Shown here one piece after another: positions 1,867 through 43,914 of a stretch of DNA of 49,769 nucleotides; within the stretch, counting starts at the first letter, position 1, and each line of letters opens with the position of its first letter. The translations under genes and the position numbers were made by a program. Below the pieces are notes generated by a model. That model had not been told where the DNA came from. It did no database searches and saw nothing but the letters and a program-made list of their open reading frames with translations. Source of the DNA: Ignavibacteria bacterium (GTDB lineage Bacteria > Bacteroidota > Ignavibacteria > Kapaibacteriales > Kapaibacteriaceae); assembly GCA_947495975.1 (NCBI GenBank), contig CANMBE010000017.1, positions 1 through 49,769 of the forward strand. Direction: 5' to 3'.

Positions 1867-3288
1867 ATGTATTGCTTCTTAGCATTCTTCATTCTGGTCT
1901 CATGCAGCATGCGACTGTCTGCACAGGGGTTCAGTACATCCAGGCTTGAGTCATCAGCTAATATGCCGCTACTCATAGCTCAACGCGCGCCGGCGGGACA
2001 ACCAATACGGTTTCTCGCCGGCGATGGCGGGTCGATTCGGGCGTTAGAGATTGACGCTGTGGGAACAACGTGGATTCGAGGACCTCTGAGCATCGGGTCA
2101 CTTGTAGGAGCAAACTCTAACGAACAAATCCGTGTAGGTTCGGTTCAACCAATTGGAGGAAGAGGAATTGTTGTTTCACTTCTTGGTACATCAACCAGTA
2201 CAGGTTTACTTGTTCGTGACGTAGGAGTAAGCGGTGTTGATGAAGCAGGGATTGTTGTACAAAGCAGTGCCAATGGAATGGGAACGGGAATACGAATTGG
2301 TGGACCGATTGGTATGCTGCGACCGGTACTATCAACTGGAATCGACATTACAGGCGGTACTGGAATTCGATATAACGCACTCACTTCTGGTAGTGGCACG
2401 GCATTGGAAATTGGCGGAACCATCGCGCCCCGTAGAGGAATTGAGATTGTTGCAACGGGCACGTCTCACATAGGATTGCTTGCACTTGCAAATACAAACG
2501 GCGCAGGTGTCATTGGTATATCGCAGTCATCGTCCTATACCACGGTTCCCGCAACAGAGAGAATTGGCGTTCGTGGACATGCAGCTACAAACTCACCAAC
2601 AATCAGCGACACGATTGTTGGCACTATGGGAAGTAGCGTACGCGGAGGAAGCGGTGGCACACTCACAACATCAATCGGGATCGTTGGACAGTCAACGTCA
2701 ACCGGCTCATCACACGCAGGTACATCCATCGGAGTGCTTGGCCGCGCAATAGCACAAGCACCAGGGAGAGCTGTTGCAATAGGCGGATGTTTTATTACTG
2801 ATACAACCAACTTGTCGCTGTGTGCCCTTGGTGGTGATATTTACCTCGGCAGCAGTGATGAAGAGCGTCCGCCTCAACTTGCCTTGTCAACATTTGCTGA
2901 ACATGACGGTCGTACGAGAACACACGTGTATGACTTGGTTGCAAGCGGTATCATCGGTGTTTCAATGTTTACGATGAAAGGGGCTACTAGTCGCGTGTTG
3001 GGACCGGGAACAGTTGATGATTTGCCAACGGATCTCGTTTCTGTCCTTCGTGTTGCCGCAGACGTCAATGCAACAACACTTTCAGGTTGTGCGGGCGTGA
3101 TGCGCGATAGAACATTGATTGTTGTAGTAACAGCAGGCACTTTACGGCTTGGACACAATCATATAGGATCAAAAGCAGAACATCGATTTCACTTGAGTGG
3201 AGGCAATGATCTACTCGTAGATGCAGACGATGCCCTTTTCCTGTGGTATGATGAGGAGATTGCCCGATGGCGCGTCATTGGCTCATAG
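1867..3288 (+). CDS. hypothetical secreted repeat protein
   Basis: A 473-residue protein with an N-terminal hydrophobic signal segment (residues 1-20, ending RLSAQ). Residues ~75-300 consist of short Gly/Ile/Thr-rich units such as GTGIRIGG, GIDITGG, GTALEIGG and RRGIEIVATG, spaced as expected for a beta-helix or fibre shaft. The ~130-residue C-terminal part has mixed composition and ends in an LWYDEEIARWRVIGS motif, like the closing strand of some phage-type receptor-binding domains. No enzyme motif was seen. The gene overlaps the next one by 22 nt in another frame, which suggests translational coupling. A surface fibre or adhesin is the most plausible role, by composition only. Confidence 0.65.
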   Translation: MYCFLAFFILVSCSMRLSAQGFSTSRLESSANMPLLIAQRAPAGQPIRFLAGDGGSIRALEIDAVGTTWIRGPLSIGSLVGANSNEQIRVGSVQPIGGRGIVVSLLGTSTSTGLLVRDVGVSGVDEAGIVVQSSANGMGTGIRIGGPIGMLRPVLSTGIDITGGTGIRYNALTSGSGTALEIGGTIAPRRGIEIVATGTSHIGLLALANTNGAGVIGISQSSSYTTVPATERIGVRGHAATNSPTISDTIVGTMGSSVRGGSGGTLTTSIGIVGQSTSTGSSHAGTSIGVLGRAIAQAPGRAVAIGGCFITDTTNLSLCALGGDIYLGSSDEERPPQLALSTFAEHDGRTRTHVYDLVASGIIGVSMFTMKGATSRVLGPGTVDDLPTDLVSVLRVAADVNATTLSGCAGVMRDRTLIVVVTAGTLRLGHNHIGSKAEHRFHLSGGNDLLVDADDALFLWYDEEIARWRVIGS

Positions 3289-5333
3289 TTGTAATTGTGT
3301 CCTCATTTCTTATTCAAGTCTTGCCGTGTAAAACGCAAGTACAATGGTCGGGTTATGCATCTCGCTCAACAGCTGTCATTGCTGTTGATTCCTGCAGACG
3401 TACGATAACGATCCTAGACCCATCATTCTTTCGCTCGGGAGATCACCTCTTATTGCACCAAACAGTAAATAGTAACAAAGGCATAGCTGGTCTCTGCGAA
3501 TGGAGTATTGTTGATACGATTATTGGTCATGTAGTCTACCTCAAAACGTCTCGTATGCATCAATATGATGCGCTACATGGACTGCAGGCAATTCAAGTCC
3601 TACATGCAATGTCAGGCGTGATTGTTGACACGCTCCGGACGTTATTGTGGAACGGATATCACGGCGGGGTCATTGCTATTGACTGCGTAGACAGTCTAAC
3701 GATCAATGGCGTGATAGATGTCTATGGTGCCGGTTGCCGCGGAGGTAGAGCGAGTCTCAATACGTTAGATACTGCCTCTTCCTCAGACACGAATGCTTCA
3801 CTGCTGCGATTACCAACCGATGGCGAAGGTCGCGGTTTAGCAAGAGGTGGTTCAGCACGAAACGCTGGTGGCGGGGGAGGTGCGCTCTTTGGAAGCGGCG
3901 GACGGGGCGGTTTTCAAACTTCTGCCTATGGGATTCAAAAGCGAGGAGGAGCAGGAGGAATTGCTTTACTTGATAATACAAACCCACCTCTGGTGTTGAT
4001 TGGAAGTGGTGGAGGGAGCGGCCATCAAAATGATTTCAATGGATCTTCAGGTGGGCGTGGTGGTGGAATAATAGTTGTGAGAGCACCACTAATCATTGTA
4101 GGTACAAATGCACGTGCGAAACTTGGAGGGGAACATGCACAGGACGCCAGAGAGGACGGCGCAGGTGGTGGTGGCAGTGGCGGAACACTCGTGATACTTA
4201 CAGATTCGATTAATGGTCTACTTCCTATTGACATTTCAGGTGGAAATGGGGGAAGCGTACGAGGAATAATTTATCACTACGGTCCAGGCGGAGGAGGAGG
4301 TGGTGGAATAGTTGCCTTTCAATCTCAGAGACTCATGCTGCAAAAAACGATATCACTTCGTGGTGGAGGTGGCGGACATTCAATACGAGTTGAGATACTG
4401 GACACAAGTACATATGGAGCGTTAGATGGCATGCCAGGGGGGACAATCTCCGGCGCTATGATCTCTACGGGTCAAATCCGTCGTGATCGTATTTCATTGC
4501 GCGCAAAAGATTCTCTCGTGGATGATGGTATGAGTACAATCCTCATTGCAAGTGGGGGAGTGTCATATCGATGGCCAACGAACGTAAGCGTTACGTCACC
4601 CCTAGGAGATTCGGCAGAAACCACAGCTCTCTTTTTGCCAACATGGTTCGTTGTAGAGATCACTACTCTTGATGGCTGTGTTGTTCTTGATAGTGTATTG
4701 GTTCGACCAAGACTCTCTGCACTGCCCAAGCTCACGATTAGTGTTGATGATGCCAAAGCAGCTCCAGGTGATACTGTTGACCTCTACGTTCGCATCAAAT
4801 CAGAACCAACAAATGTGAGAACGATTACGGGAACGGTGTTTGTATCGATGAGGTCCACAACCCTCATCCCTGTTCGTAGCGCCAAACACACAAGTGACAG
4901 CACAATTCAGATGGCCTTTCCACTGCGTCTCGATGCTCGCTCAGGAAGTAGCTATCGTAGAGCAACTGCTATTGCGGCACTTGGTGACTCATTAAAGATC
5001 GTGCTCGCGATTGATAGTGTTCGCCTAGACACGACAGTCCGTGATCTACGATTGATCTATGGGACTTTTACACTTGAAGGAGTTTGTGTTGACAACGGCA
5101 GACCCCGTCTCATCACTCGCGATTCATCAAAATTTTTCATTCAAGGGCAAACGATATCAGCCGACGCCGATGAGCTTTTGCTCTTTGACCTTACTGGCAA
5201 AAGAGTAGTAATTGAAACCGTGCGAACAGGTAGTATGCTACGTGCAGTAGTTCCAGACCTTGCTACTGGTGCATTCTTCATGACATTGATTAAGAACGGA
5301 CGAAGTCAGACGTATGGCATCGTGATTGAATAG
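3267..5333 (+). CDS. secreted glycine-rich protein with probable T9SS sorting domain
   Basis: A 688-residue protein. Residues 1-24 are a signal peptide. Residues ~150-400 form a Gly-rich beta-helix-like region with many GGGGG, GSGG and GGRGG tracts. A SYRW-containing Ig/PKD-like module follows at ~425-475, then a beta-sandwich region. The last ~80 residues contain LLLFDLTGKRV, an AVVPDLATGAFFMTLI stretch and a terminal strand (QTYGIVIE). This matches the general form of type IX secretion C-terminal sorting domains: a 'DLTGK' turn, then 'L..G.Y.v.i...g......v'. If so, it is exported across the outer membrane and attached to the cell surface. It is the last gene of the secreted-protein run and ends 13 nt from a convergent gene. 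Confidence 0.7.
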   Translation: MARHWLIVVIVSSFLIQVLPCKTQVQWSGYASRSTAVIAVDSCRRTITILDPSFFRSGDHLLLHQTVNSNKGIAGLCEWSIVDTIIGHVVYLKTSRMHQYDALHGLQAIQVLHAMSGVIVDTLRTLLWNGYHGGVIAIDCVDSLTINGVIDVYGAGCRGGRASLNTLDTASSSDTNASLLRLPTDGEGRGLARGGSARNAGGGGGALFGSGGRGGFQTSAYGIQKRGGAGGIALLDNTNPPLVLIGSGGGSGHQNDFNGSSGGRGGGIIVVRAPLIIVGTNARAKLGGEHAQDAREDGAGGGGSGGTLVILTDSINGLLPIDISGGNGGSVRGIIYHYGPGGGGGGGIVAFQSQRLMLQKTISLRGGGGGHSIRVEILDTSTYGALDGMPGGTISGAMISTGQIRRDRISLRAKDSLVDDGMSTILIASGGVSYRWPTNVSVTSPLGDSAETTALFLPTWFVVEITTLDGCVVLDSVLVRPRLSALPKLTISVDDAKAAPGDTVDLYVRIKSEPTNVRTITGTVFVSMRSTTLIPVRSAKHTSDSTIQMAFPLRLDARSGSSYRRATAIAALGDSLKIVLAIDSVRLDTTVRDLRLIYGTFTLEGVCVDNGRPRLITRDSSKFFIQGQTISADADELLLFDLTGKRVVIETVRTGSMLRAVVPDLATGAFFMTLIKNGRSQTYGIVIE

Positions 5334-6848: not shown

Positions 6849-8144
6849 TCAGTTTAGACCACAACGCTGAAATATCGCGTCTACGTTTTTCAACATACGA
6901 GTGTCGTCAAATATTGCATCGAGTTCATCATCCGAAAACAGCGCCATAATCTCTTGATCTTCACGAAGTGTCTGACGAAAAGGGATTTTGGTTTCCCAAG
7001 TACGCATTGCATTTCGCTGTACCATCTTATATGCATCTTCTCGTGATACTTCTTTACGGACTAAGGCCAACAGAACCGATTGTGAGAATGGCAGTCCATG
7101 TGTGAGCGCTAGATTCTTGAGCATCGCTTCGGGGTAGACCAAGAGCTTATCGATAAGCCCTATAGCAAGATGTAGCATGTAGTGGAGCGCTATGGTGGAG
7201 TCTGGGCAGATTACTCTTTCTACGGAACTATGCGAGATGTCGCGCTCATGCCAGAGTGCGTTATTTTCAATCGCGGCCAAAGCATTACCACGAAGAATGC
7301 GTGCCATCCCACAAATACGTTCGCTTAAGATTGGATTACGCTTGTGTGGCATCGCCGATGAACCTTTTTGTCCCGCTGAAAAGAACTCTTCGGCTTCAAG
7401 AACTTCCGTTCTCTGTAAATGGCGAACCTCTGTTGCGATTTTCTCGAGAAATGCACCGATGATTGCAAGTGTCGTTAGATACTCCGCATGACGATCCCGC
7501 TGAATGACTTGTGTGCTAACGGGAGCTGGCTTAAGACCTAACTTCTCACATACATATGCTTCAACCTCGGGCGAAAGATGTTCAAATGTTCCAACGGCAC
7601 CCGAGATCATTCCAACGCTAATTGACTCTATCGCCCGCTCCATACGAACAATGCTTCTCTTGCATTCTTCGTGCCACAAGGCAAGTTTCAATCCAAAAGT
7701 AGTTGGTTCTGCATGTATGCCATGCGAGCGTCCGATGCATACAGTATGCTTGAACTCCTTGGCGCGGCGCGCAAGAATGTCACGAAGTATCCTGAGGTTG
7801 GCAAGCATCAATTCACCGGCTTGCTTAAGCTGAACACCGAGACAGGTATCGAGGACATCGCTTGAGGTCATTCCCAAGTGTATGAAGCGAGAAGCCGGAC
7901 CTACGTATTCAGCAACATTGGTCGTAAATGCAATCACATCGTGTTTCGTGATTTCTTCAATCTCGAGAATTCGTTCTACGTTAAACGCAGCCTTTGCACG
8001 AATCTCTACAACAGCCTCACGCGGTATAACGCCGAGTTCTGCTTGGGCTTCGCATGCAAGAACTTCTATCTCTAACCAGATGGCATATTTATTCTCATCT
8101 GACCAAATAGCACCCATATCGGGCCGTGTGTATCGAGTAATCAT
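6849..8144 (-). CDS. purB: adenylosuccinate lyase
   Basis: A 431-residue member of the fumarase/aspartase superfamily. PurB splits adenylosuccinate to AMP and SAICAR to AICAR, each with release of fumarate, in cytosolic purine synthesis. The N-terminus ([19 protein letters not shown]) is typical of the short bacterial PurB type. The superfamily signature [11 protein letters not shown] lies near residue 257. The TSSDVLDT segment near residue 92 and the [14 protein letters not shown] segment (residues ~139-152) carry the other substrate-site residues. The length is normal for the family. The 91-nt gap upstream separates it from tsaB, and the next gene downstream follows after 2 nt. Confidence 0.95.
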
Positions 8145-32413: not shown

Positions 32414-35400
32414 TTATTCAGCCGTAGTATCGATAGCAAACCTACACGCATCAGTGAGAAGCTCGTCTTGCTGACGAGCATGTGTGCTTGGTGATCCTGT
32501 TGCAGGGCTTGCAGCGGCGGCCCTTCCGGCATAGTGCAGACTTTGTCCAGGCAACAATAGCTCAAGCAAATACGGTTGCACAAATGTCCAGGCTCCCATG
32601 TTCTTGGGTTCTTCCTGGCACCAAACAATGTCTTGTATATTCTTGTACTGACCCAACAGCTCTTGCATCTTTTGGCTATGAAATGGGTGAATCTGCTCCA
32701 AGCGAATCAATGCCACGTTGTATGTACCTAGGTCGCTACGCTTCTTGAGGAGTTCGTTATAAACCTTCCCCGTAGAAATCACCACGCGGGTAATGCCTGA
32801 TTTATCTTCTACTGTAGAATCGTCAATGATTTCCTGATACGCCCCGTGATACAGCTCATCAACATTTGACTGAAAGATGCGCAGATATCCCTTGGGAGTC
32901 ATAACGATAAGGGGCTTACGCCACTGCGCTTTTACTTGTCTACGCAGCGCGTGAAAGTAGTTTGCTGGTGAAGTAAAGTTGCAGACTATCATGTTGTCTT
33001 GCGCGCAAAGCTGAAGGAAACGTTCAAGACGTGCACTAGAATGTTCTGGACCCTGACCATCGTATCCATGTGGCAACAAGATTGTTACGTTGCTACGCTG
33101 ATTCCACTTTTCTTCTGCACTCGAGATAAATTGATCGAACACGATCTGTGCGCCGTTTGCAAAGTCTCCAAACTGGGCTTCCCAAATTGTGAGACCTGTC
33201 TTTGAAACGGTGCTATACCCGTATTCAAATCCAAGCACTGCATATTCAGAAAGTGGTGAATCATAGATGTGCAGTGATTGCGGTGCTCCGATTTCATTTA
33301 GCGGAACGTGGCGAGTGTCATTCGTAATGTCGCGATGAACTGCCTGCCTATGATTAAACGTACCGCGTCCAGTGTCTTGACCTGTGATGCGAACCAGGTG
33401 GTCTTCTCGTAACAACGATCCAAACGCCAGAGCCTCAGCCATTCCCCACTGTACGGTTCCTGCATCAAAAGCCGTTTTACGCTTTATTGCTTCTGCATTC
33501 ACTTTCGCATGGATTGAAAACGTATCGGGTACGGTTGTAACCGCATTGGCAATAAATGCTAGCTCTTCATGCGAAACATCTGTCTTGACATCTGCAAACA
33601 TGTCTACATCAATAGCTTGTGGATGCAATGCTACTGCTGCTGCTCTATTATCATACGCACGAACGAGCACCGATTGCTCTTCATCAACGATTGTCTGCAA
33701 TGATTCTGCATTGCTGATTCCCTCAGCAATGAGTAGGGCCTCGTAAACGCGGCGCACAGGAACCATATTGCGAATCTTCTTATAGAGCAATGGTTGTGTT
33801 GCCGTAGGATCATCTTGTTCGTTATGGCCATACTTGCGATAGCAATACATATCAATCACTACATCATCGCCAAACTTTTCGCGATAAGCGAATGAGAACT
33901 TCGCAGCAGCTCTGCATGCCTCTGGATCATTTCCATCTACATGGAGAATTGGAACCTGAAGCATTTTGGCAATACCGGTAGCATAGTGTGTTGACCGCGA
34001 ATCTTCAGGTGAGGTAGTAAAACCAATCTGGTTATTGATGATAATGTGAATTGTTCCACCCGTAGCGTATCCAGACAGACGGGCCATGTTCAGGGTTTCT
34101 GGCACAACACCCTGACCGGCGAACGCTGCGTCTCCGTGAATCAGAATTGGCATCACTCTACTGTACGTCTCGTCATTGATGTTATCATCGAGCGCCCTGG
34201 CAATTCCCTCAACAACAGGATTAACCGCCTCTAGGTGACTTGGATTTGGTGCCAACACCATGTGAATGGACTTGCCGTCGCTCGAACGGTATGTCCCCTT
34301 TGCCCCAAGGTGATACTTTACATCACCGGAACCTTGGTAGGACAACGGGTCTATCTTCCCTTCAAACTCATTGAAGATTTTTTCAAGGGGCTTACCCATC
34401 ATATTGGCAAGCACATTGAGTCTACCGCGGTGCGTCATTCCTAGAACAACACCCGCTAGATCATTGGTGGCGGCATCCTGAAGAATTTGATCAAGGATGA
34501 TAAGGGCGCTTTCGCCTCCTTCCAATGAAAAGCGTTTTGCGCCGAGAAACTTTGTGTGAAGAAAGTTTTCAAGATTTTCTGCTCGTGCAAGCTTTCTAAA
34601 GGTCTCAAGTTTCTCTTCGTTTGAAGGAGCCACCTTTAGATGCGTTGACTCAACATTGTCACGAATCCACTGCTTTTGATCAGGATCCTGAATATGCATG
34701 TACTCGATGCCAACATGGTCACAATACGTGTCTCGCAACAGGTCAATAATATCACGAAGTGTTGCTCGCCTTACACCACCAAGGCCTCCCGTATCGAAAG
34801 CTCTATCGAGATCCCAAATCGTGAAATTGTAATGTGCGGGATCAAGCTCAGGATAGTGATATGCTTCTAAGCCCAGAGGATTGATGTCGGCAAGGAGGTG
34901 ACCTCGAACGCGGTATGCATTTATCATTTGCACCACGCGTCCCTCTTTATCGATTATCTCTGGCTGATCTTGAGGAAGGAAAGGATTAGCCCCCTTCTCA
35001 ACTGTCCAGCGCATTGGCTCAAATGGAATTCCAAGGGCGGCAAAGATCTGCTCATAAAAACGATGTTCGCCAATCAAGAGCTGATGGATGTGTTGTAGAA
35101 ATTCACCTGATTCAGCACCCTGTATAACCCGGTGGTCATACGTGGATGTGATCGTCACAACTTTTGAGATAGCAAGTGTTGAGAGAACATCTGGCATCAT
35201 TGCCTGAAACTCAGCAGGATATTCAATAGCGCCTGTAGCAACAATGGTCCCCTGGCCATCCATGAGACGAGGAACCGACATCACCGTGCCAATGCCACCT
35301 GGATTCGTGAGGGTAATATTAGCACCCGATAGATCTTCTGGCGTGAGTTTGTTTGTGCGGGCACGCACAATGATCTCATCGTAGGCTCGTGCAAAGGCAT

Positions 35401-35989
35401 CGAATGATAACTTCTCAGCGTGTTTGATGCTTGGCACTAACAGAATGCGACTTCCATCTTTACGCGTTGTATCTACAGCCAAACCAAGATTGATGCCTCC
35501 ACGCTCAACACGCACAGGGACCCCCTCATGGAGGCCGTATGAATTCTTCATGTTTGGATATTTTTCCGCCGCCTTCACAATTGCCCAAGCCAAGATGTGT
35601 GTGAAGGAAAGTTTAGACCTTCTCTTCTTTGTCAACACCGTGTTTGCGATTCGTCGGTTTTCTTCAAGTGCCTTCACTGGAGCATTCCGTACACTTGTTG
35701 CCGTAGGAACGCGTAGTGACGCCTCCATGTTTTCGGCAATCTTGCCACCGATGGAAGAGAGTGGTACCAGAGTATCGTCAGGACCAAGAGCAGGAAGTCT
35801 ATTCACATTGGATGGCGTAACAACTTCTGAGGTTGCCTGACCCTTCGCTCCAGTACGCGGAGGGACGGAAAGCGGTTTTTCCGGCGTATAGTTTTGGAAG
35901 AATGATTTCCACTCTGGAGAAATCGACTCCGCATCTCTGAGGTAGTCGAAATACAATTCTTCAACGTAGGCGCTATTCATCGACATCAT
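32414..35989 (-). CDS. kgd: multifunctional 2-oxoglutarate dehydrogenase (E2-E1 fusion, Kgd/OdhA type)
   Basis: A ~1191-residue protein that oxidatively decarboxylates 2-oxoglutarate in the TCA cycle. The N-terminal ~35 residues (NSAYVEELYFDYLRD) match the E1o start helix. After a linker, residues ~75-300 are an acyltransferase (E2) catalytic domain with LTNPGGIGTVMSVPRLM and the active-site TYDHRVIQGAESGEFL. Residues ~345-1190 are the thiamine-diphosphate E1 with GMTHRGRLNVLANMMGKPL, NPSHLEAVNPVVEG, GDAAFAGQG and HGYDGQGPEHSSARLERFLQL. No lipoyl domain is present, as in the mycobacterial Kgd and corynebacterial OdhA enzymes. Start choices are 36028, 35989, 35986 or 35980; I prefer 35989. It lies 54 nt downstream of pgeF. 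Confidence 0.94.
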   Translation of the reverse strand: MMSMNSAYVEELYFDYLRDAESISPEWKSFFQNYTPEKPLSVPPRTGAKGQATSEVVTPSNVNRLPALGPDDTLVPLSSIGGKIAENMEASLRVPTATSVRNAPVKALEENRRIANTVLTKKRRSKLSFTHILAWAIVKAAEKYPNMKNSYGLHEGVPVRVERGGINLGLAVDTTRKDGSRILLVPSIKHAEKLSFDAFARAYDEIIVRARTNKLTPEDLSGANITLTNPGGIGTVMSVPRLMDGQGTIVATGAIEYPAEFQAMMPDVLSTLAISKVVTITSTYDHRVIQGAESGEFLQHIHQLLIGEHRFYEQIFAALGIPFEPMRWTVEKGANPFLPQDQPEIIDKEGRVVQMINAYRVRGHLLADINPLGLEAYHYPELDPAHYNFTIWDLDRAFDTGGLGGVRRATLRDIIDLLRDTYCDHVGIEYMHIQDPDQKQWIRDNVESTHLKVAPSNEEKLETFRKLARAENLENFLHTKFLGAKRFSLEGGESALIILDQILQDAATNDLAGVVLGMTHRGRLNVLANMMGKPLEKIFNEFEGKIDPLSYQGSGDVKYHLGAKGTYRSSDGKSIHMVLAPNPSHLEAVNPVVEGIARALDDNINDETYSRVMPILIHGDAAFAGQGVVPETLNMARLSGYATGGTIHIIINNQIGFTTSPEDSRSTHYATGIAKMLQVPILHVDGNDPEACRAAAKFSFAYREKFGDDVVIDMYCYRKYGHNEQDDPTATQPLLYKKIRNMVPVRRVYEALLIAEGISNAESLQTIVDEEQSVLVRAYDNRAAAVALHPQAIDVDMFADVKTDVSHEELAFIANAVTTVPDTFSIHAKVNAEAIKRKTAFDAGTVQWGMAEALAFGSLLREDHLVRITGQDTGRGTFNHRQAVHRDITNDTRHVPLNEIGAPQSLHIYDSPLSEYAVLGFEYGYSTVSKTGLTIWEAQFGDFANGAQIVFDQFISSAEEKWNQRSNVTILLPHGYDGQGPEHSSARLERFLQLCAQDNMIVCNFTSPANYFHALRRQVKAQWRKPLIVMTPKGYLRIFQSNVDELYHGAYQEIIDDSTVEDKSGITRVVISTGKVYNELLKKRSDLGTYNVALIRLEQIHPFHSQKMQELLGQYKNIQDIVWCQEEPKNMGAWTFVQPYLLELLLPGQSLHYAGRAAAASPATGSPSTHARQQDELLTDACRFAIDTTAE

Positions 35990-36042
35990 GGCCGAACACT
36001 TTCTCGTGTCATTAAAACGTGATTGCAAAACTAACCACTTTC

Positions 36043-36762
36043 CTACGGCTTGCTGCGCAACCCTATGAACGCCAACATTCTACCTGATAGTTCCTTGTCT
36101 CGCCGGTATGAATGCCAAAGTTCATGTGTCATTGTGCACGAGCCAAACACGGCAACGTTCTCCCTCGTCACACCTGCATATACACACTGGTCCGTGATAG
36201 CCTGAGTGTTATCAAACAGCCATTTTTGTCCTTTGGGCATGCAGTATCCGGGAAGTGCGTTAAAGACGTCCTCACCAACTTCATAGTGCTCACCAGAGGC
36301 ACATGGTGATAGCCAAACGCGTAAATCTTGGGCATTGCTTCCTGCGTATGAATTCATGCTCTGAATAGCATTTCCTACAATGTTTGATGCCGTTCCGCGC
36401 CAGCCGCTATGAATGGCGGCCACTGCGCCTCTCACTGGGTCGTGTACCAGTACACCACAACAATCAGCAACCTTTACGCCAATAACAATGCCTGGTGTGG
36501 TGGTGATCAGGCCATCGGCTACTTCAGTCGTATTCGCTTGAGCAACGATTATTCTTGAACCATGCACTTGTTGGACAGTAACGATGTTCTCTCTATCAAT
36601 GCCAAGGTGATGTGCTAGCTCAATATATGATTGCTCAACCTGTTCAATACTTGTTGAAGGTGAAGACGAAAATGTATACCCTGGCCATTGCAGTGTTGAA
36701 GTATCAACAGTGGTGATACCACTCCACAGTCGACTATCGTCTAGAGCGTCTTGAATCTTCAT
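36043..36762 (-). CDS. pgeF: peptidoglycan editing factor / laccase-domain purine nucleosidase family
   Basis: A 239-residue YfiH/PgeF (Cu-oxidase_4) protein. The metal-site motifs are VQQVHGSRI near residue ~65, KVADCCGVLVHDP near ~103 and AIHSGWRGTASNIV near ~120 (Cys and two His ligands). Members have been shown to act as purine nucleoside phosphorylases/adenosine deaminases and, in E. coli, to prevent misincorporation of serine into peptidoglycan. The length is normal. The ATG overlaps the 3' end of comEC by 29 nt in another frame. Order on the reverse strand is comEC-pgeF-kgd. Confidence 0.9.
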   Translation of the reverse strand: MKIQDALDDSRLWSGITTVDTSTLQWPGYTFSSSPSTSIEQVEQSYIELAHHLGIDRENIVTVQQVHGSRIIVAQANTTEVADGLITTTPGIVIGVKVADCCGVLVHDPVRGAVAAIHSGWRGTASNIVGNAIQSMNSYAGSNAQDLRVWLSPCASGEHYEVGEDVFNALPGYCMPKGQKWLFDNTQAITDQCVYAGVTRENVAVFGSCTMTHELWHSYRRDKELSGRMLAFIGLRSKP

Positions 36763-38566
36763 AAATCGAACCTACGAGTTTGCTTCGAATTCCTCCACTC
36801 ATTCGTCTGCCCCATAATCCTACGCCCTCGCACGCAAGGGGTATGCGTTGTTGCGCACACCACTGATGCAATCGTACATCGCTCCCCGTATACAGTTGTC
36901 CACGAAGTAAAACATTCATTGTATCTCGGTATCGATAGGCGAAAACAACTCCTTCTCGTCTCTGCGCAACCACGTGGTATGGGTCTTCGCTAGAAGTATT
37001 CCAGATCAAAAGTATCACAACGGTAATACCACATGCGACTCTTACAAGTGCACCCAACATTGACTTTGCAACAGTGGGCCACAGTAGCACAATGATGAAC
37101 AACACAACAACAATCCATCGCAATGTTATTGGCACCGAATCCAGACTATGATCAGCACCAGCAAGGGCAAGTGCATCTGCCGCTTTGATAACAACTGTTG
37201 CGCACCATGCAATCGGATATGCAATGCCAACTGCTGATACAGCGCAAACTACCAAGCTTAACACAAGCGCTACACTTAGCAGTGGCACAACAACTAAATT
37301 AACGATTGGTGCCGTAAGTGACGTGGATGAAAAGTATGCGACAGAAGGAATACTTACGCCAATCGTTGCAGCAATGCTCGTTGCTAGGGTCATTACAATT
37401 GCTACCTTCCACGGTCGAGGCCGATGAACGAGTTGCATTATTCTTTGTAACCATAGTGGTGCTACAATAAGGATGGATGCCATTGCAATTACCGAAAGCA
37501 CCATTCCAGGCTGAAGCAAGGATATTGGATCAAAACAAATCATAAGGATCACAACTCCACAGAGAATATTGACAAGATCAACATCTCGTTCGCCCCTTTT
37601 AATAATCAATGCCACAATTCCCATCATGCCGGCTCGAATGGCAGGGGGCTCTGCACCACTTACAAAGACATATACTGCGATGAACAATGAAATCACCACT
37701 ACTCGCCACCATGACGGTGACCGGCCGATAAGAAGGAAGAGAACACCAAGGATCACGCCTACATGTGAGCCACTCACTGAGAACATATGCGCCGTTCCGC
37801 TTGCTGCATATGCCTGCATTGATGTGAATTCCAATCCTGATTTATCACCTATGACTACGGCCACTGCAATCCACGCTTCATTGCGAGGCAAATAGTGTGA
37901 TAGTGTTGTGGTAATCCAGTTTCGAAGGATATCTCTACTTCTATACAACCATGGTTGCTCGTGAGTTACCACAGACCGCGCGCGTTCGGCGATGAATGAT
38001 GCACAGACACTTCTACATAATGCCACTTCAGGAAACTCACTAGGAAGTGTAGCAGGATCAGGTCGATGTATTTCTGCGAATACAATTCGGTACTCACCAA
38101 CTCGAGGTAATGGGATCGTTGAATCTCTGACGCGTTCATTGATGATACACCGAGTAAGGACACACGGAAGCAGTGCAGCGTCAACCTCACCATCGATGAC
38201 ATATTTTCTAACGGTTGGCGTGCATCGCCGCACGTTAACGACTCTTCCCTCGATTCGGGCGCGAAGTTTTGGACCAAAATCGATACCGGAGCTCACAGAC
38301 CGCTCTACTAATTGCCCCGACGTACAGCAACCAATTGCTAGGCATCCTAACCACATTGCCATGCTGTTCTTACCGCGCACCAGTCCGAGAATTGCTCCCA
38401 AACTGCATACACTGCTCCCCCATTGTAAAAACGTAACTGGAACGTCCCCTGAAGCCAACAAGAGCGTCAAAAGAAGCACCCATAGTGAAATCAGGAGGAG
38501 TGGTTGGCGTTGTTCCACCGCTATCTGTGCTCCCGAACCTTTTGAACGTGACTTCCTTGGTGTCAA
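36734..38566 (-). CDS. comEC: ComEC/Rec2 family DNA uptake channel
   Basis: A 610-residue inner-membrane protein, the channel that brings single-stranded DNA into the cytosol during natural transformation. Two to three N-terminal helices are followed by a soluble OB-like DUF4131 region (residues ~75-190, RIEGRVVNVRR). The Competence domain has the conserved segment GTAHMFSVSGSHVGVILGVLF near ~255 and PPAIRAGMMGIVALI near ~305. The metallo-beta-lactamase domain found at the C-terminus of Bacillus ComEC is absent; only ~70 residues follow the last helix. It is divergent from recA with a 125-nt gap, which puts DNA uptake and recombination functions back to back. Confidence 0.9.
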   Translation of the reverse strand: MTPRKSRSKGSGAQIAVEQRQPLLLISLWVLLLTLLLASGDVPVTFLQWGSSVCSLGAILGLVRGKNSMAMWLGCLAIGCCTSGQLVERSVSSGIDFGPKLRARIEGRVVNVRRCTPTVRKYVIDGEVDAALLPCVLTRCIINERVRDSTIPLPRVGEYRIVFAEIHRPDPATLPSEFPEVALCRSVCASFIAERARSVVTHEQPWLYRSRDILRNWITTTLSHYLPRNEAWIAVAVVIGDKSGLEFTSMQAYAASGTAHMFSVSGSHVGVILGVLFLLIGRSPSWWRVVVISLFIAVYVFVSGAEPPAIRAGMMGIVALIIKRGERDVDLVNILCGVVILMICFDPISLLQPGMVLSVIAMASILIVAPLWLQRIMQLVHRPRPWKVAIVMTLATSIAATIGVSIPSVAYFSSTSLTAPIVNLVVVPLLSVALVLSLVVCAVSAVGIAYPIAWCATVVIKAADALALAGADHSLDSVPITLRWIVVVLFIIVLLWPTVAKSMLGALVRVACGITVVILLIWNTSSEDPYHVVAQRREGVVFAYRYRDTMNVLLRGQLYTGSDVRLHQWCAQQRIPLACEGVGLWGRRMSGGIRSKLVGSIYEDSRRSRR

Positions 38567-38691
38567 TGTTGAAAACTTACTCCGTTAAGGGGCTCCAACA
38601 ACGCGGTATTTTGCGGCTCGCGTCACGCTTAGCAACCTTCAGCGCACGATGCTATTAATGAGCAAATGATCACTTACACCAGGATGTTAGC

Positions 38692-39798
38692 ATGAGCACA
38701 GAAGCGAAGGCACCCAAAGAGCCAAAGGAAGTAAAAGAAGTAAAGGAGCCTAAGGAGGTCAAGGAATCAACCTCTTTGAAACCACCAGAAGCCAAGATAA
38801 AAGCAGCCCAGTTGGCGATGGAGCAAATCGAGAAAGCTTTTGGCAAAGGCTCTATCATGCGCCTTAGTGATGAGAGTTCCGTTGATATTGAATCAATCTC
38901 TACGGGATGTCTTTCACTCGATGCTGCTATTGGAATAGGCGGCGTACCACGAGGTCGTATTGTTGAGATCTATGGACCTGAATCTTCAGGAAAGACAACA
39001 GTGTGTCTTCAGGTCATTTCTGAAGCACAAAAAAATGGTGGGCTTGCTGCATTTGTAGATACTGAGCATGCCTTAGATGTCAAGTACGCTCAAAGACTCG
39101 GCGTTGATCTTAACAACCTCTTGCTTTCACAACCAGAGTTCGGTGAGCAAGCGCTAGAGATTGTAGAGACGTTGGTTCGCTCAGGTGCCATTGATGTGGT
39201 TGTAATTGACTCTGTTGCTGCACTTACTCCTCGAGTTGAAATTGAAGGTGACATGGGAGACGCACAAATGGGCTCTCAGGCACGCCTCATGAGTCAGGCA
39301 ATGCGTAAGCTGAATGCTGCAATTGGGCGATCAAATACCACCGTTATCTTTACCAATCAATTGCGTTCAAAGATTGGTGTTGTCTACGGTAATCCAGAGA
39401 CAACAACTGGCGGCAATGCGCTCAAGTACTACGCGTCTGTTCGCATTGATGTGAGACGCAAGGACGTTATTAAAGACGGTCAAGAAATCGTTGGAAACCG
39501 CGTTCGTGCCAAGATCGTGAAGAACAAAGTAGCTCCTCCATTCCGCGAAGCAGAATTCGACATCATGTATAACGAGGGCATTTCGCGGCTGGGTGATATG
39601 ATCGACGTTGCTGTTGAGAGTGGCATCATTGTAAAATCTGGTTCGTGGTTCTCGTTCAATGATGAGCGAGTTCAAGGCCGTGATGGTATGCGTAAACTCT
39701 TGACAGAAAATGCGCCACTCTATGCAGCACTTGAAAGTGTTGTACGAGAGGCACTCCATCTTCCTACTCCTGGTGTGGTTCCAAACAAGAAAAAGTAA
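38692..39798 (+). CDS. recA: recombinase RecA with charged N-terminal extension
   Basis: A 368-residue RecA. It forms the ATP-dependent filament for homologous recombination and triggers SOS responses. Walker [10 protein letters not shown] lies near residue ~95, the [11 protein letters not shown] Walker B strand near ~173, and loop regions [15 protein letters not shown] and TGGNALKYY follow. The first ~30 residues are unusual: repeats of the type [18 protein letters not shown] precede the normal start ([21 protein letters not shown]). The extension is coded from the ATG at 38692; no better in-frame start precedes the conserved helix. The recX fusion gene begins 3 nt after the stop. I saw no LexA-type operator upstream. 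Confidence 0.97.
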
Positions 39799-39801
39799 TT
39801 C

Positions 39802-41964
39802 ATGGGCATCATCACGTCAATCCGTCGCAACGTAAAGGACGGTGGGCGTTGCTCGGTGTTTGTTAACGAAGCATTCTTTGCGGCGTGTCCGATTGATGTG
39901 GCAACATCACTCGGGCTCCGCAAAGGTCTTGAAATGTCGGATGAACTTGAACGTAATCTTCGCAAGGAGGATAGGCGTATCGTTCTGAGACAAAAGACAT
40001 ATCATTACGCCACATACAAGCCACGCACCGAGAAACAAGTGCGCGTGTATCTTGCTGGACGCAAAGCTGTTGATGAAGAGATTGACGATGTAATGAAGTG
40101 GCTCATTGATTTTCATTTGCTTGACGATCGCAAGTATGCTGAACGTTTTCTTGAGGCAGCCCGCGATCAGAAGCCCCTTTCACGATCAGCAGCCAAGCGC
40201 ACGTTGAAGCTCAAAGGAGTTCCCGAAATGCTCATTGATGATGTACTTGAAGAGCATTATTTGGTTGAACACGCACTTGATGCTGCACGACGAGTAGCGC
40301 AAAAAAAGATTCGAATGTTAACGGCATCAACAGACAAAGAGCGCAACGATAAGCTTATGCGTTTTTTGCAGTATCGGGGCTATGCCTGGGATGTCATTCG
40401 GACCGTGCTCGATGAGCTTCGCTCTGGGTCACTTGCACTTGCAATCACATCGTGCATCATCTTGGCATCGAGTGCGTTGTCTATGTCTGCTCAAGCTGTT
40501 ACAACATGCAAGCGCGACCGTCTTCCTGATGCAATCAATCGATTTCAAACAACAACGCAGCCTGTTATCTCACCAAACGGCACGTTGTTTGTTGACCGTA
40601 AACAGCATCCCAATAATGCCGATGGTGGTGTAAAAGATCCAGATGATGTCTGGATGTCGAGACACGATGTGTCGTGGAAATGGATCGAGGTGGTACGAGA
40701 GCAGTTCACGACATTCACAAGGCCTGATGTTGTTTTTTCTTTCACAAGTGATGGCCTTGCTGCGCTTGTTGTTGGACGATATCGAATCTTCAACGGAGAT
40801 TCAGTTCCATCGTTGGCCATTATATCACGCAGATCCAAGCGCGACCTTTTTACCCACGTCGAGACTGTGGTTTTGCCGGGTGTAGATGAATTAGGTCGCA
40901 ATTTTTATGGCGTCATGAGCGATGATCGCCAGTCGATCATCGTTGCACTCGAAAGACCTGGTGGCGTTGGCGGCCTTGATCTGTATCATACATCATATTG
41001 TCAGAAATCTTGGTCAGCACTTGTGAATCTTGGATCTAGTGTCAACACTGTAGCTTTTGAAGGGGCACCATGGCTCGCACCTGATGGTGTTACCTTGTAC
41101 TTTGCCTCTAGTGGACGCGACGATCGAAGGGGCAAAGCAGATCTCTACATGACGCGTAGACGTGATGACTCGTGGCAACAGTGGTCAACGCCAGTAAATC
41201 TTGGATCATGCATCAATACGATTGAAGACGAAACAGCGTTTTCCCTCATTGGGCGCGGCGATAGCGCGTTGATCTACTCTTGGGATCCGGATTCTGACCG
41301 GCCCGGAATTTATCTCGTTGAGCTATCTGAGGATATTCGTCCTCTGCCAACATGCCGATTCGCAGGACAAGTTGTTGATGCGGTAACCAATGCGCCCCTT
41401 ACCCTTGCTACGCTCATCATTCAGGACACTGCAGCTACATGCATTCCATTCGTTCTGCCGCTAGACTCCTCAGACAATACATTCGCAATTACATTACCAT
41501 TACGACATCAATGTAAGATCGTAACACGCGCTTCTCATTATGTTGATCATCATCACGTGATTGGTGAAGGTACACTCGATAGTAACACCACGATTCGTGT
41601 TACCACGCGTTTGTTTGACACGCGCAAACCACTCGCATCAATCTATTTTGACCGCGGAGTTGCTCAACTCAACAGTGAGAACGCAGCACTCTTGCAGAAC
41701 CTTGTGCAGCAATACGATGTGCGGCAGATTGACTTTGAGGTTGTTGGGTATACAGACGCGGTGGGCACGCCCCCGCGTAACAATACGCTGTCTCAACAGC
41801 GTGCTCGATCGGTTTTTGAGAAGCTCCTACTTCTAGGACTTCTGCCTGATCGAATTCGTCCAATTGGGCGTGGAATAGAGAATCCAGGCACATTGCTGGG
41901 GCTTAAAGAGAATCCTCAGAGTAGACGCGTAGACATCTTCCCTACAAACGAGTTACCGCGCTGA
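39802..41964 (+). CDS. recX: RecX regulator fused in frame to a PD40/OmpA envelope protein
   Basis: A 720-codon ORF with no internal stop. Residues 1-~205 are a complete RecX: the three-helix repeats include KPRTEKQVRVYLAGR, DDRKYAERFLEAAR and the closing RFLQYRGYAWDVIRTVLDEL; RecX restrains RecA filaments in the cytosol. Directly after this comes a signal-peptide-like segment (residues ~206-232, LALAITSCIILASSALSMSAQA). A PD40-type beta-propeller (~250-515), a carboxypeptidase-regulatory-like domain (~520-605) and an OmpA domain (~615-715, GYTDAVG and RRVDIF peptidoglycan-binding residues) follow. A GTG at 40405 (residue 202) could start a separate 519-residue exported protein. The pairing is either a true fusion, overlapping genes in the same frame, or a lost stop. 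It follows recA after 3 nt. Confidence 0.88.
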   Translation: MGIITSIRRNVKDGGRCSVFVNEAFFAACPIDVATSLGLRKGLEMSDELERNLRKEDRRIVLRQKTYHYATYKPRTEKQVRVYLAGRKAVDEEIDDVMKWLIDFHLLDDRKYAERFLEAARDQKPLSRSAAKRTLKLKGVPEMLIDDVLEEHYLVEHALDAARRVAQKKIRMLTASTDKERNDKLMRFLQYRGYAWDVIRTVLDELRSGSLALAITSCIILASSALSMSAQAVTTCKRDRLPDAINRFQTTTQPVISPNGTLFVDRKQHPNNADGGVKDPDDVWMSRHDVSWKWIEVVREQFTTFTRPDVVFSFTSDGLAALVVGRYRIFNGDSVPSLAIISRRSKRDLFTHVETVVLPGVDELGRNFYGVMSDDRQSIIVALERPGGVGGLDLYHTSYCQKSWSALVNLGSSVNTVAFEGAPWLAPDGVTLYFASSGRDDRRGKADLYMTRRRDDSWQQWSTPVNLGSCINTIEDETAFSLIGRGDSALIYSWDPDSDRPGIYLVELSEDIRPLPTCRFAGQVVDAVTNAPLTLATLIIQDTAATCIPFVLPLDSSDNTFAITLPLRHQCKIVTRASHYVDHHHVIGEGTLDSNTTIRVTTRLFDTRKPLASIYFDRGVAQLNSENAALLQNLVQQYDVRQIDFEVVGYTDAVGTPPRNNTLSQQRARSVFEKLLLLGLLPDRIRPIGRGIENPGTLLGLKENPQSRRVDIFPTNELPR
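40405..41964 (+). CDS. alternative product: OmpA/PD40 protein from an internal GTG
   Basis: Alternative reading of the 3' part of the RecX fusion ORF, in the same frame. Translation from GTG 40405 gives a 519-residue protein whose first ~30 residues form a good signal peptide: a short basic start (LDELRSGS), a hydrophobic core and a cleavage site after SMSAQA. The mature part is the PD40 propeller plus OmpA domain, which would be expected in the periplasm bound to peptidoglycan. No convincing Shine-Dalgarno precedes the GTG, but that is usual in this phylum. Whether it is made separately cannot be told from sequence. Confidence 0.4.
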   Translation: MLDELRSGSLALAITSCIILASSALSMSAQAVTTCKRDRLPDAINRFQTTTQPVISPNGTLFVDRKQHPNNADGGVKDPDDVWMSRHDVSWKWIEVVREQFTTFTRPDVVFSFTSDGLAALVVGRYRIFNGDSVPSLAIISRRSKRDLFTHVETVVLPGVDELGRNFYGVMSDDRQSIIVALERPGGVGGLDLYHTSYCQKSWSALVNLGSSVNTVAFEGAPWLAPDGVTLYFASSGRDDRRGKADLYMTRRRDDSWQQWSTPVNLGSCINTIEDETAFSLIGRGDSALIYSWDPDSDRPGIYLVELSEDIRPLPTCRFAGQVVDAVTNAPLTLATLIIQDTAATCIPFVLPLDSSDNTFAITLPLRHQCKIVTRASHYVDHHHVIGEGTLDSNTTIRVTTRLFDTRKPLASIYFDRGVAQLNSENAALLQNLVQQYDVRQIDFEVVGYTDAVGTPPRNNTLSQQRARSVFEKLLLLGLLPDRIRPIGRGIENPGTLLGLKENPQSRRVDIFPTNELPR

Positions 41965-43914
41965 TAGATTAACGATGGCTGTAGCACGACCTTCATTTGG
42001 GCGCTCTTCCATGATCTTGAGCGTCCACATGTGATGCGTGTGCAAATACAGTGCTACCATATTTTCGGCGAGCCATTCAAATCCTTCATCGTGATGGGGT
42101 GATCTCCACAAGAGTTCGTCGCTTACAATCAGACATGCGCGCTCAAAGCCATCCTGTCCTGCAATCTGTATAATAATCTCTTCTAACTCTGAAGGCCGTC
42201 GTTCAAGACGAATTGTTATGCGTTGCCAGTCTTCGTGATTCTCAATGGATACATCGCGCACCAAGGCCCTTGCACGGTGCATTGCAGCTGTTCCGAATAT
42301 CACGGGAACACGGATTGGGTCACTCGTCATAACAACCTCCTGAAGTGGTCGGGATAGATCCACCGGAGGTGAAATCCCGCATGCCTCAAACATTGTTGAA
42401 AGGTGGCCACGAAAGATAGAATCAAAATTGGATTTATGGGTTGCCATGTGCCGGTCATCATACCACCAGAACCAATCTGATGCCTCTACGGTCTCCATTG
42501 CAGTTGCAACCTCTTCTGGAGTCTTTCCAGCCCCCTCCAATGCTAATTTGGCGTCTCTGAGGAGTGACCACGCCAAATTCTTCAGTGGCGACCCTATCCA
42601 AATGTCAAAGGTTCCATTTATCCAGGATCCGGCTGTGAAATGGTGAAGCCTGCGCTTGCCAGGTGAATCTGCAGCTTCAGAGCACGTGAGCGACGTGAAC
42701 AGGGCTGGATTCGAACACCGCTGCATGAGGGCATTGAGGAATTCTTCTCCATTACCATCGTAAAACTCCCAACAGTTTTCGCCGTCAAGAATAATTGGAA
42801 CAACGGCTGAAGCAAGAGCCTCCTCGCCAAACTGCGAAATGATCATGAGCCTGCGTTCGTGAAGTCGGCGAACAAAGTCATCTGCCGCTACGTTTGCGTC
42901 CCATCGTGCATATTCAAAACCAATTGCGTCACTTAACCCGTGGTCTCTAAATAAGACAGTTATTGGTCCAAACGACGTCTCTACTTCATGCGGAAAATAT
43001 TTCTCTGCAGGATGCCACAATTCGCCCAATGATTTTTGAAGCACATCTTCGTCGGTGGCCGTCCATACTACACCATGTTCTGCCAACATTGCAAGCGACG
43101 CGGTAGACAAACTACCCTCTGCAGACCACATGCCCTTTGGGCGATGACCGCTTCGGTGCTGCCAGTCATCCAGGGCTCTGCATACATGTCTGCGTGCATG
43201 CTCCGGTGCGCAATACGCAGGATACGGTAGTTCAACATCCGGCATACTCTCATGTGCTACATCTGAATCTATCAACAAGGGCAGGATAGGGTGATGATAT
43301 GGCGTAACACTAATCTCAAACATGCCAGATGCTTCATATTCAAGCAACGTTGGAACAACATCTTCCATGATTTCGTGATGCAGGGCAATCAATGCATGAA
43401 TCTGTTCTTCATGAAAGTTGCGTTCTTGAATAATCATCTCAACTGCTAGCGCAGATGTACGTCGCACTTCCGGACCAAGCCAAGCAAGGTTCACAAGTGC
43501 CTGCACGTCGCGCCATGTCTGATTGTCATACCCCTCAAATTTGCGCGCAACAAGCGAGTCAAACAATTCCTCGTATCGTGGCAAGGGGCTAACCATGGTA
43601 CCTCGCTGCACAGTTGTTGCCCAGCCCGCCAAAGCCAGCTTCTGCTCATCAGTGAGGTCAATGGCAGAGGTCAGAGTAAGTGTCTCAAGTTCATCCATGC
43701 GCCCCGTTGCGTAACCATCGAGCTGCATAAGCATAGATGGCACAACATTGATTGTATGCTTTACAGGGTGTTGCCCAAGGATTTTACAAATATCTCTATA
43801 GTCCTTTGTTGCATGGAGCCGAACCCATGGCAAAAAGTATCCATCACCGGATCGGTAGTCGGGTTGATGTTGATGCCAGAGAAAACAGATCCGTAGCGGC
43901 AGTGATGTGCTCAC
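41953..43914 (-). CDS. glycoside hydrolase family 57 protein
   Basis: A 653-residue GH57 enzyme, acting on alpha-glucans (amylase, amylopullulanase, branching or transferase activities occur in the family). Conserved region 1 is HQHQPDY at residues ~14-20. The nucleophile segment GMWSAEGSLS lies near ~260, and the acid/base region LDGENCWEFYDGNG near ~375. A helical region follows, and the last ~100 residues form a beta-rich domain. It has no signal peptide, so it is probably cytosolic and involved in glycogen or storage glucan metabolism. The gene end overlaps that of the convergent RecX-OmpA gene by 12 nt. The exact specificity cannot be set by sequence reading. Confidence 0.9.
   Translation of the reverse strand: MSTSLPLRICFLWHQHQPDYRSGDGYFLPWVRLHATKDYRDICKILGQHPVKHTINVVPSMLMQLDGYATGRMDELETLTLTSAIDLTDEQKLALAGWATTVQRGTMVSPLPRYEELFDSLVARKFEGYDNQTWRDVQALVNLAWLGPEVRRTSALAVEMIIQERNFHEEQIHALIALHHEIMEDVVPTLLEYEASGMFEISVTPYHHPILPLLIDSDVAHESMPDVELPYPAYCAPEHARRHVCRALDDWQHRSGHRPKGMWSAEGSLSTASLAMLAEHGVVWTATDEDVLQKSLGELWHPAEKYFPHEVETSFGPITVLFRDHGLSDAIGFEYARWDANVAADDFVRRLHERRLMIISQFGEEALASAVVPIILDGENCWEFYDGNGEEFLNALMQRCSNPALFTSLTCSEAADSPGKRRLHHFTAGSWINGTFDIWIGSPLKNLAWSLLRDAKLALEGAGKTPEEVATAMETVEASDWFWWYDDRHMATHKSNFDSIFRGHLSTMFEACGISPPVDLSRPLQEVVMTSDPIRVPVIFGTAAMHRARALVRDVSIENHEDWQRITIRLERRPSELEEIIIQIAGQDGFERACLIVSDELLWRSPHHDEGFEWLAENMVALYLHTHHMWTLKIMEERPNEGRATAIVNLSAR

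Follow-up and report, generated by a model that had tools for sequence, protein, structure and literature searches.

The window, by which we mean the whole stretch of 49,769 nucleotides that was analyzed, comes from an Ignavibacteria genome of the family Kapaibacteriaceae (G000 in our sample) and carries next to recA a single open reading frame in which a RecX regulator runs into a hydrophobic stretch, a propeller, a beta domain and an OmpA-type domain (Table 1). RecX is a recA-linked regulator of RecA filaments, and this linkage is present here, with the fused frame starting 3 bases after recA. The Pfam matches in the 720-residue product all exceed the curated cut-offs and comprise RecX_HTH1 (residues 64 to 101), RecX_HTH2 (108 to 149), RecX_HTH3 (159 to 203), PD40 (411 to 450), and OmpA (615 to 697), with scores of 35.6, 28.0, and 46.3 bits for the three RecX domains (cut-off of 26 each) and 47.7 bits for OmpA (cut-off of 27.2).

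Table 1. Features of the fused gene and its immediate neighbors (positions in the window)
Feature	Position	Strand	Description
recA	38692..39798	+	Immediately upstream, 3-base gap; Pfam RecA, E = 1.8e-134; same operon inferred by position
Fused recX::PD40-OmpA frame	39802..41964	+	720 residues; ATG start; stop at 41962-41964, no internal stop (open reading frame list)
RecX part	39802..40416	+	Residues 1-205; complete, all three HTH domains present (Pfam; alignment of predicted model to RecX 3d5l)
In-frame GTG, proposed internal start	40405..40407	+	Codon 202, Val of the last helix of RecX
Hydrophobic core LALAITSCIILA	40432..40467	+	Residues 211-222; h-region of the signal-like sequence (hydropathy scan)
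Putative signal peptidase I region	40468..40509	+	Residues 223-236; motif scan and 15-row alignment
Beta-propeller with PD40 repeat	40504..41343	+	Residues 235-514; Pfam PD40, fold alignments
Beta domain between propeller and OmpA	41350..41616	+	Residues 517-605; secondary structure of the predicted model
OmpA/Pal-like domain	41617..41949	+	Residues 606-716; Pfam OmpA, fold match to OmpA/Pal
Convergent GH57-family gene	41953..43914	-	Shares its last 12 bases with the fused gene; Pfam GH57, E = 3.6e-41; not part of the fusion

An AlphaFold2 model of the whole protein has a mean pLDDT of 84.6 and a pTM of 0.62, with residues 211 to 235 below a pLDDT of 50. Residues 1 to 205 of this model align with the solved structure 3d5l over the full length of the RecX fold (Z = 18.7, rmsd = 3.1, 203 aligned residues), and, because Pfam also gives all three HTH domains, the RecX part is complete as judged from the predicted fold. 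None of the NCBIfam RecX models among the best 25 of 33 matches reaches its own cut-off, the two best equivalog models scoring 98 against 240 bits and 97.9 against 194 bits over residues 1 to 207. The last helix of RecX (residues 196 to 223) leads into the hydrophobic stretch in the model, with low confidence from residue 211 on.

With respect to the remainder of the protein, residues of about 235 to 514 of the predicted structure align with GH43-type and related chains, which we take to be of the five-bladed propeller fold; these matches are read as a shared fold, with no indication of function. The beta domain (517 to 605) has no Pfam family match of its own, and residues 604 to 716 align with an OmpA domain. 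OmpA-type domains carry a conserved Asp/Arg pair with a functional role, and the corresponding Asp652 and Arg667 are invariant in all 15 complete fusions that we describe below; the domain would be expected to bind peptidoglycan. The earlier note had read a complete RecX, a signal-peptide-like helix, a PD40 propeller, and an OmpA domain in one stop-free frame, a description that the open reading frame, the Pfam matches, and the fold alignments all bear out.

Distribution, phylogeny and selection of the fusion

The family of the window genome is represented by 23 genomes, and we observe RecX in frame with an exported part in 17 of them, 15 with the complete fusion (G000 to G004, G006 to G009, G011, G013, G018, and G020 to G022) and 2 without the propeller (G014 and G019). 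The full-length, stop-free homologs in the 14 other genomes with a complete fusion show 44 to 69% identity; a stop flagged by the searches in G021 is the natural end of the protein, whose 695-codon frame has none inside. For the rest of the family, recX and the propeller-OmpA gene are adjacent, separate, and in different frames in G012 and G017, RecX stands alone in G015 (ending in DELVSVR, with no exported part beside it), the loci of G005 and G010 are broken by contig ends, and the search of the family genomes found no RecX match in G016. The earlier note had suggested looking for the architecture in relatives and had allowed that the two genes might be separate in every one of them, which is not the case, given 17 fused and 2 separate cases among the 23 family genomes. 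Furthermore, a single RecX match is seen in G000 and likewise in every other fused genome (18 in all, with G051, introduced below), and therefore the RecX of the cell must come from the fused frame.

In G014 and G019, RecX and the hydrophobic stretch are followed by a shortened exported part (stop-to-stop frames of 436 and 442 codons), which is matched by a profile of the complete exported part (E = 1.7e-12 and 8e-21, respectively) and in which Pfam OmpA is not found at an E value of 0.01. G014 is also without the equivalent of Asp652 and gives no HTH2 match. At these two loci (L032 and L033), the partner appears diverged and decaying, with the fusion to RecX kept.

RecX is matched at E = 1e-6 in 111 of the 123 genomes that represent the order. 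Its frame exceeds 400 codons in G051 and the 17 fused family genomes alone, the rest measuring 66 to 330 codons from stop to stop, fragments included. G051 belongs to another family and holds RecX, the hydrophobic stretch, and propeller-OmpA in one 695-codon frame, with both HTH2 (22.1 bits) and OmpA (21.9 bits) below the Pfam cut-offs. Because its tree neighbors carry separate genes, this is probably a second, independent origin of the fusion, seen on one contig and on a long branch that joins G052 at a support of 64 and is unsure in its place. Among 395 genomes drawn evenly from the phylum, full-length fused matches are confined to the family of the window genome, in a search that scored two candidates per genome and listed matches to E = 1e-70, so that a more distant fusion could be missed. 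Outside the phylum, the fusion search consisted of two RecX patterns.

Separate neighbors are found in 10 of 28 loci, in which recX is followed by a propeller-OmpA gene of its own (G012, G017, G026, G035, G050, G052, G070, and G097 to G099), and coordinates indicate five further such pairs (G040 to G043 and G100); in a set of 20 loci, 13 showed no RecX beside the propeller gene. Going by presumed, plausible upstream ATG starts, on which all figures for the ten neighbors rest, the two genes would overlap in six (G097, G098, and G099 by 4 bases, G026 and G035 by 11, and G052 by 29). They would be spaced by 8 bases in G012, at least 47 in G017, and 63 in G050, and G070, whose first start is GTG, would have a gap of 96 bases. 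The genes share a frame, with stops between them, in G050 and G070, and differ in frame in the other eight. We infer that a small change at such an overlapping or close junction would yield a fusion, which makes for an easy route.

In a 29-row tree, the separate pair G012/G017 stands beside G000, G002, and G004 (support of 100), with deeper family nodes at supports of 26 to 32, and in a 26-row tree (without G014, G019, and G015) the pair takes no firm position. Constraining the 26-row tree to unite all 15 complete fusions in a single clade costs 0.22 log units (p-AU = 0.508). Because this constraint costs little and the deeper support is low, we prefer neither of two histories that fit equally: the genes may have fused once, after the divergence of G012/G017, or may have fused and later separated again.

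As to selection, dN/dS values in the two closest pairs (G018/G022 and G006/G009, in this order) are 0.26 and 0.10 for RecX, 0.13 and 0.12 for the propeller, and 0.09 and 0.12 for OmpA. By these ratios (0.08 to 0.26 outside the junction), all three parts are under purifying selection in both pairs. The junction, which is short (25 to 27 codons) and the most diverged part, gives 0.23 and 0.25. Six further pairs have synonymous sites near or beyond saturation, and in these the junction reaches 0.50 (G002/G004) and 1.10 (G001/G007), which indicates weak constraint on the junction itself.

These data bear on whether a missed base or stop in sequencing or assembly could have produced the frame. The records of the fused loci are MAGs and the genes are separate in several relatives, yet the stop-free junction is conserved in 17 family genomes from several different projects, and in close pairs the sequences that flank it have dN/dS values far below 1. 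We thus rejected such an artefact for the family as hardly credible; for G051 alone, with its one contig, it is possible. Because so many related species share the stop-free junction, the in-frame fusion in the window protein is, on this comparative sequence evidence, real and no sequencing error, and its occurrence in several genera speaks for its being at least harmless.

The junction between RecX and the exported part

The hydrophobic core starts 11 residues past the RecX end motif and is of a strength similar to that of the separate orthologs, with a best 12-residue mean hydropathy of 2.66 in the 18 fused genes versus 2.56 in 23 separate orthologs (P = 0.49) and a best 19-residue mean of 1.97 versus 1.86 (P = 0.23). 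Uncharged spans at the junction of the fused genes measure 15 to 35 residues, many of them long enough for membrane crossing. After the core, the motif [AVLITSGM]-x-[AGS]-Q is found in 14 of the 18 fused genes, where other stretches of the same proteins would lead one to expect 1.3; the scan is a rule of thumb that allows Met at -3, not a trained signal-peptide predictor. Since four fused genes lack this signal-peptidase-like motif (G022, G018, G001, and G051) and 9 of the 23 separate orthologs have it, it is not a fixed mark of the protein family.

Candidate cuts in the window protein lie after Ala230, with Met at -3, or after Ala232, where Ala-Gln-Ala fits. Cys236 is invariant in the complete fusions (15/15); under the lipobox rule for lipoprotein signals, no lipobox was found before it in the window protein, where the residues read VTT. 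Overall, the region has the appearance of a cleavable signal peptide, and its position would leave RecX in the cytosol and the OmpA domain outside. This is the orientation given in the earlier note, which had further pictured RecX as anchored at the inner face of the membrane. That lasting joint anchor is the less likely part: because the hydropathy is not above that of separate orthologs and the site occurs well beyond expectation, cleavage into two proteins appears more likely than RecX staying joined to an envelope anchor.

We also scanned the 18 fused genes for every ATG, GTG, and TTG in a stretch that opens 30 codons ahead of the end of the RecX end motif and reaches 5 codons into the core. 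Some in-frame start codon lies within the 30 codons before the core in 14 genes (a single TTG each in G022 and G003) and none is found there in the other four (G004, G008, G018, and G051), with position and codon of the candidates varying from species to species. The near-cognate codons ATT, ATC, ATA, and CTG are present near the core in 18 of 18. GTG is not significantly enriched among the Val codons of the junction (14 of 37 versus 274 of 908 elsewhere; Fisher, P = 0.36).

With neither a conserved start nor a significant GTG excess, we rejected an internal start as a general mechanism; in single species, that of the window included, it is possible. The GTG from which the earlier note would have had the envelope protein made separately does exist in frame at codon 202; its conservation as a start is what the comparison fails to show. 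An arrangement of two overlapping genes in one frame, in which this GTG or another start would yield the exported protein and recX would read through, could draw on the candidates before the core in most fused genes and on the near-cognate codons in all of them. It nevertheless seems unlikely to us, as the candidates differ by species, four genes have none of the three codons, and RecX, with no stop at its end, would always carry an extension.

Proposed processing and comparison with known systems

The fused gene is probably, though far from certainly, a polyprotein gene, the end of RecX acting as the n-region of a signal peptide and signal peptidase I separating RecX from an exported PorE-like protein. 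Under this proposal, recX and a downstream PorE-like gene (propeller, beta domain, and OmpA), which are close neighbors in several lineages of the order, would have merged into one frame. The ribosome would make RecX, whose last, C-terminal helix would enter the signal sequence directly and serve as its n-region, with RecX remaining in the cytosol. The remainder would then be exported via Sec, and signal peptidase I would cleave on the C-terminal side of a small residue. The products would be a mature protein that binds peptidoglycan in the periplasm and a RecX with the signal peptide still attached as a tail in the membrane, which might be trimmed at a later stage. One translation product would thereby give two proteins in a fixed ratio, with recA just upstream.

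Alternatively, the product could stay in one piece as a transmembrane protein, with RecX inside, propeller and OmpA in the periplasm on peptidoglycan, and RecX tethered and possibly controlled from the outside. Selection on one frame without stops agrees with this, as do the long uncharged spans, the RecX that is still joined to an exported part after propeller loss in G014 and G019, and the invariant Asp652 and Arg667 of the complete fusions. We consider it quite unlikely all the same, since 14 of the 18 fused genes carry a signal-peptidase-like site and their hydropathy is not measurably above that of separate orthologs. More doubtful still is a transmembrane recombination regulator in which a signal sequence, either uncut or trimmed, would keep RecX tied to the membrane and the propeller-OmpA part would sense the cell wall, so that the state of the envelope, or DNA entering at the membrane, would directly control RecA filaments. 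Because the propeller is lost in G014 and G019 and G015 has no partner beside RecX, we lean toward a tolerated polyprotein rather than a sensor; these cases suggest that RecX does not need the exported partner.

In its set of three HTH domains, its fold, its recA neighbor, and its being the only RecX match in the genome, the RecX part resembles other RecX proteins; it differs in that the fused gene has no stop at the RecX end and continues in frame into signal-like sequence and an exported-type protein. Among the matches listed for the literature on RecX, titles and abstract openings contained no report of a fusion to an envelope protein.

The exported part is nearest to PorE, its best NCBIfam match being T9SS_PorE. 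The excerpt of PMC5053529 on PorE/PG1058, a protein of type IX secretion, gives the order TPR, propeller, carboxypeptidase-regulatory-like domain (CRD), and OmpA; the exported part shares the order of propeller, beta domain, and OmpA, its beta domain sitting where PG1058/PorE has the CRD in that excerpt. The model cut-off of 600 bits is not reached (92.3 bits for the whole frame and 93.9 for the exported part), and no match to TPR, which PorE has at its N terminus, was found in the 720 residues at an E value of 0.1. The same model gives higher scores elsewhere in G000, at three places (196.9, 194.2, and 111.2 bits), all below the cut-off, and it produces below-cut-off matches in 6 of 14 control genomes. 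PorE proper was rejected as an identification, since no place in G000 reaches the cut-off and the protein shows no TPR and no lipobox.

With respect to the arrangement as a whole, FbcH, the cytochrome b/c1 polyprotein of Bradyrhizobium, yields two proteins from one frame by way of an internal cleavable signal sequence. The fused gene is similar in having, in one frame, a cytosolic-type part, an internal signal-like sequence, and an exported-type part, with cleavage predicted here; the parts of FbcH, in contrast, are subunits of one membrane complex, whereas here a recombination regulator is combined with an envelope protein. We know of no joint function of RecX and a propeller-OmpA envelope protein. 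MotB-like and FecR/RsgI-like proteins have a cytosolic N-terminal part, one uncleaved span, and a periplasmic C-terminal part, which in MotB includes an OmpA-type domain. They follow the same topology plan as the fused protein, but contain no RecX, and their span is uncleaved.

With the only RecX of the cell joined in one conserved frame to an exported cell-wall protein, RecX would be synthesized as the leading part of an exported polypeptide, in a fusion that seems to have arisen in two families. The case would test how Sec and signal peptidase handle a folded n-region of 200 residues and whether RecX works at the membrane. In addition, automatic annotation could mislabel the envelope protein as RecX, or the reverse.

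Elsewhere in the window, we looked for signs of SOS control of the recA operon, for which CTGT-N8-ACAG and GAAC-N4-GTTC are known forms of the SOS box. CTGT-N8-ACAG is not found in the window (1.1 expected). GAAC-N4-GTTC occurs four times (at 7400, 21193, 21533, and 48355) against 0.87 expected, with as many in 2 of 100 shuffles, and is absent from positions 38540 to 38760 around the start of recA. SOS control of the operon was rejected on the absence of the one form from the window and of the other from the start of recA. A 688-residue frame at 3267-5333 (+) has no Pfam match at an E value of 1e-6. Divergent to recA-recX, a ComEC-type competence gene (36734-38566, minus strand; Pfam Competence, E = 1.5e-45) places a DNA-uptake gene beside recombination genes. 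In a 1,204-residue frame (32414-36028, minus strand), 2-oxoglutarate dehydrogenase E1 domains share one chain with the catalytic domain of a 2-oxoacid dehydrogenase acyltransferase; such a fusion of E2 and E1 is known from actinobacterial OdhA/Kgd.
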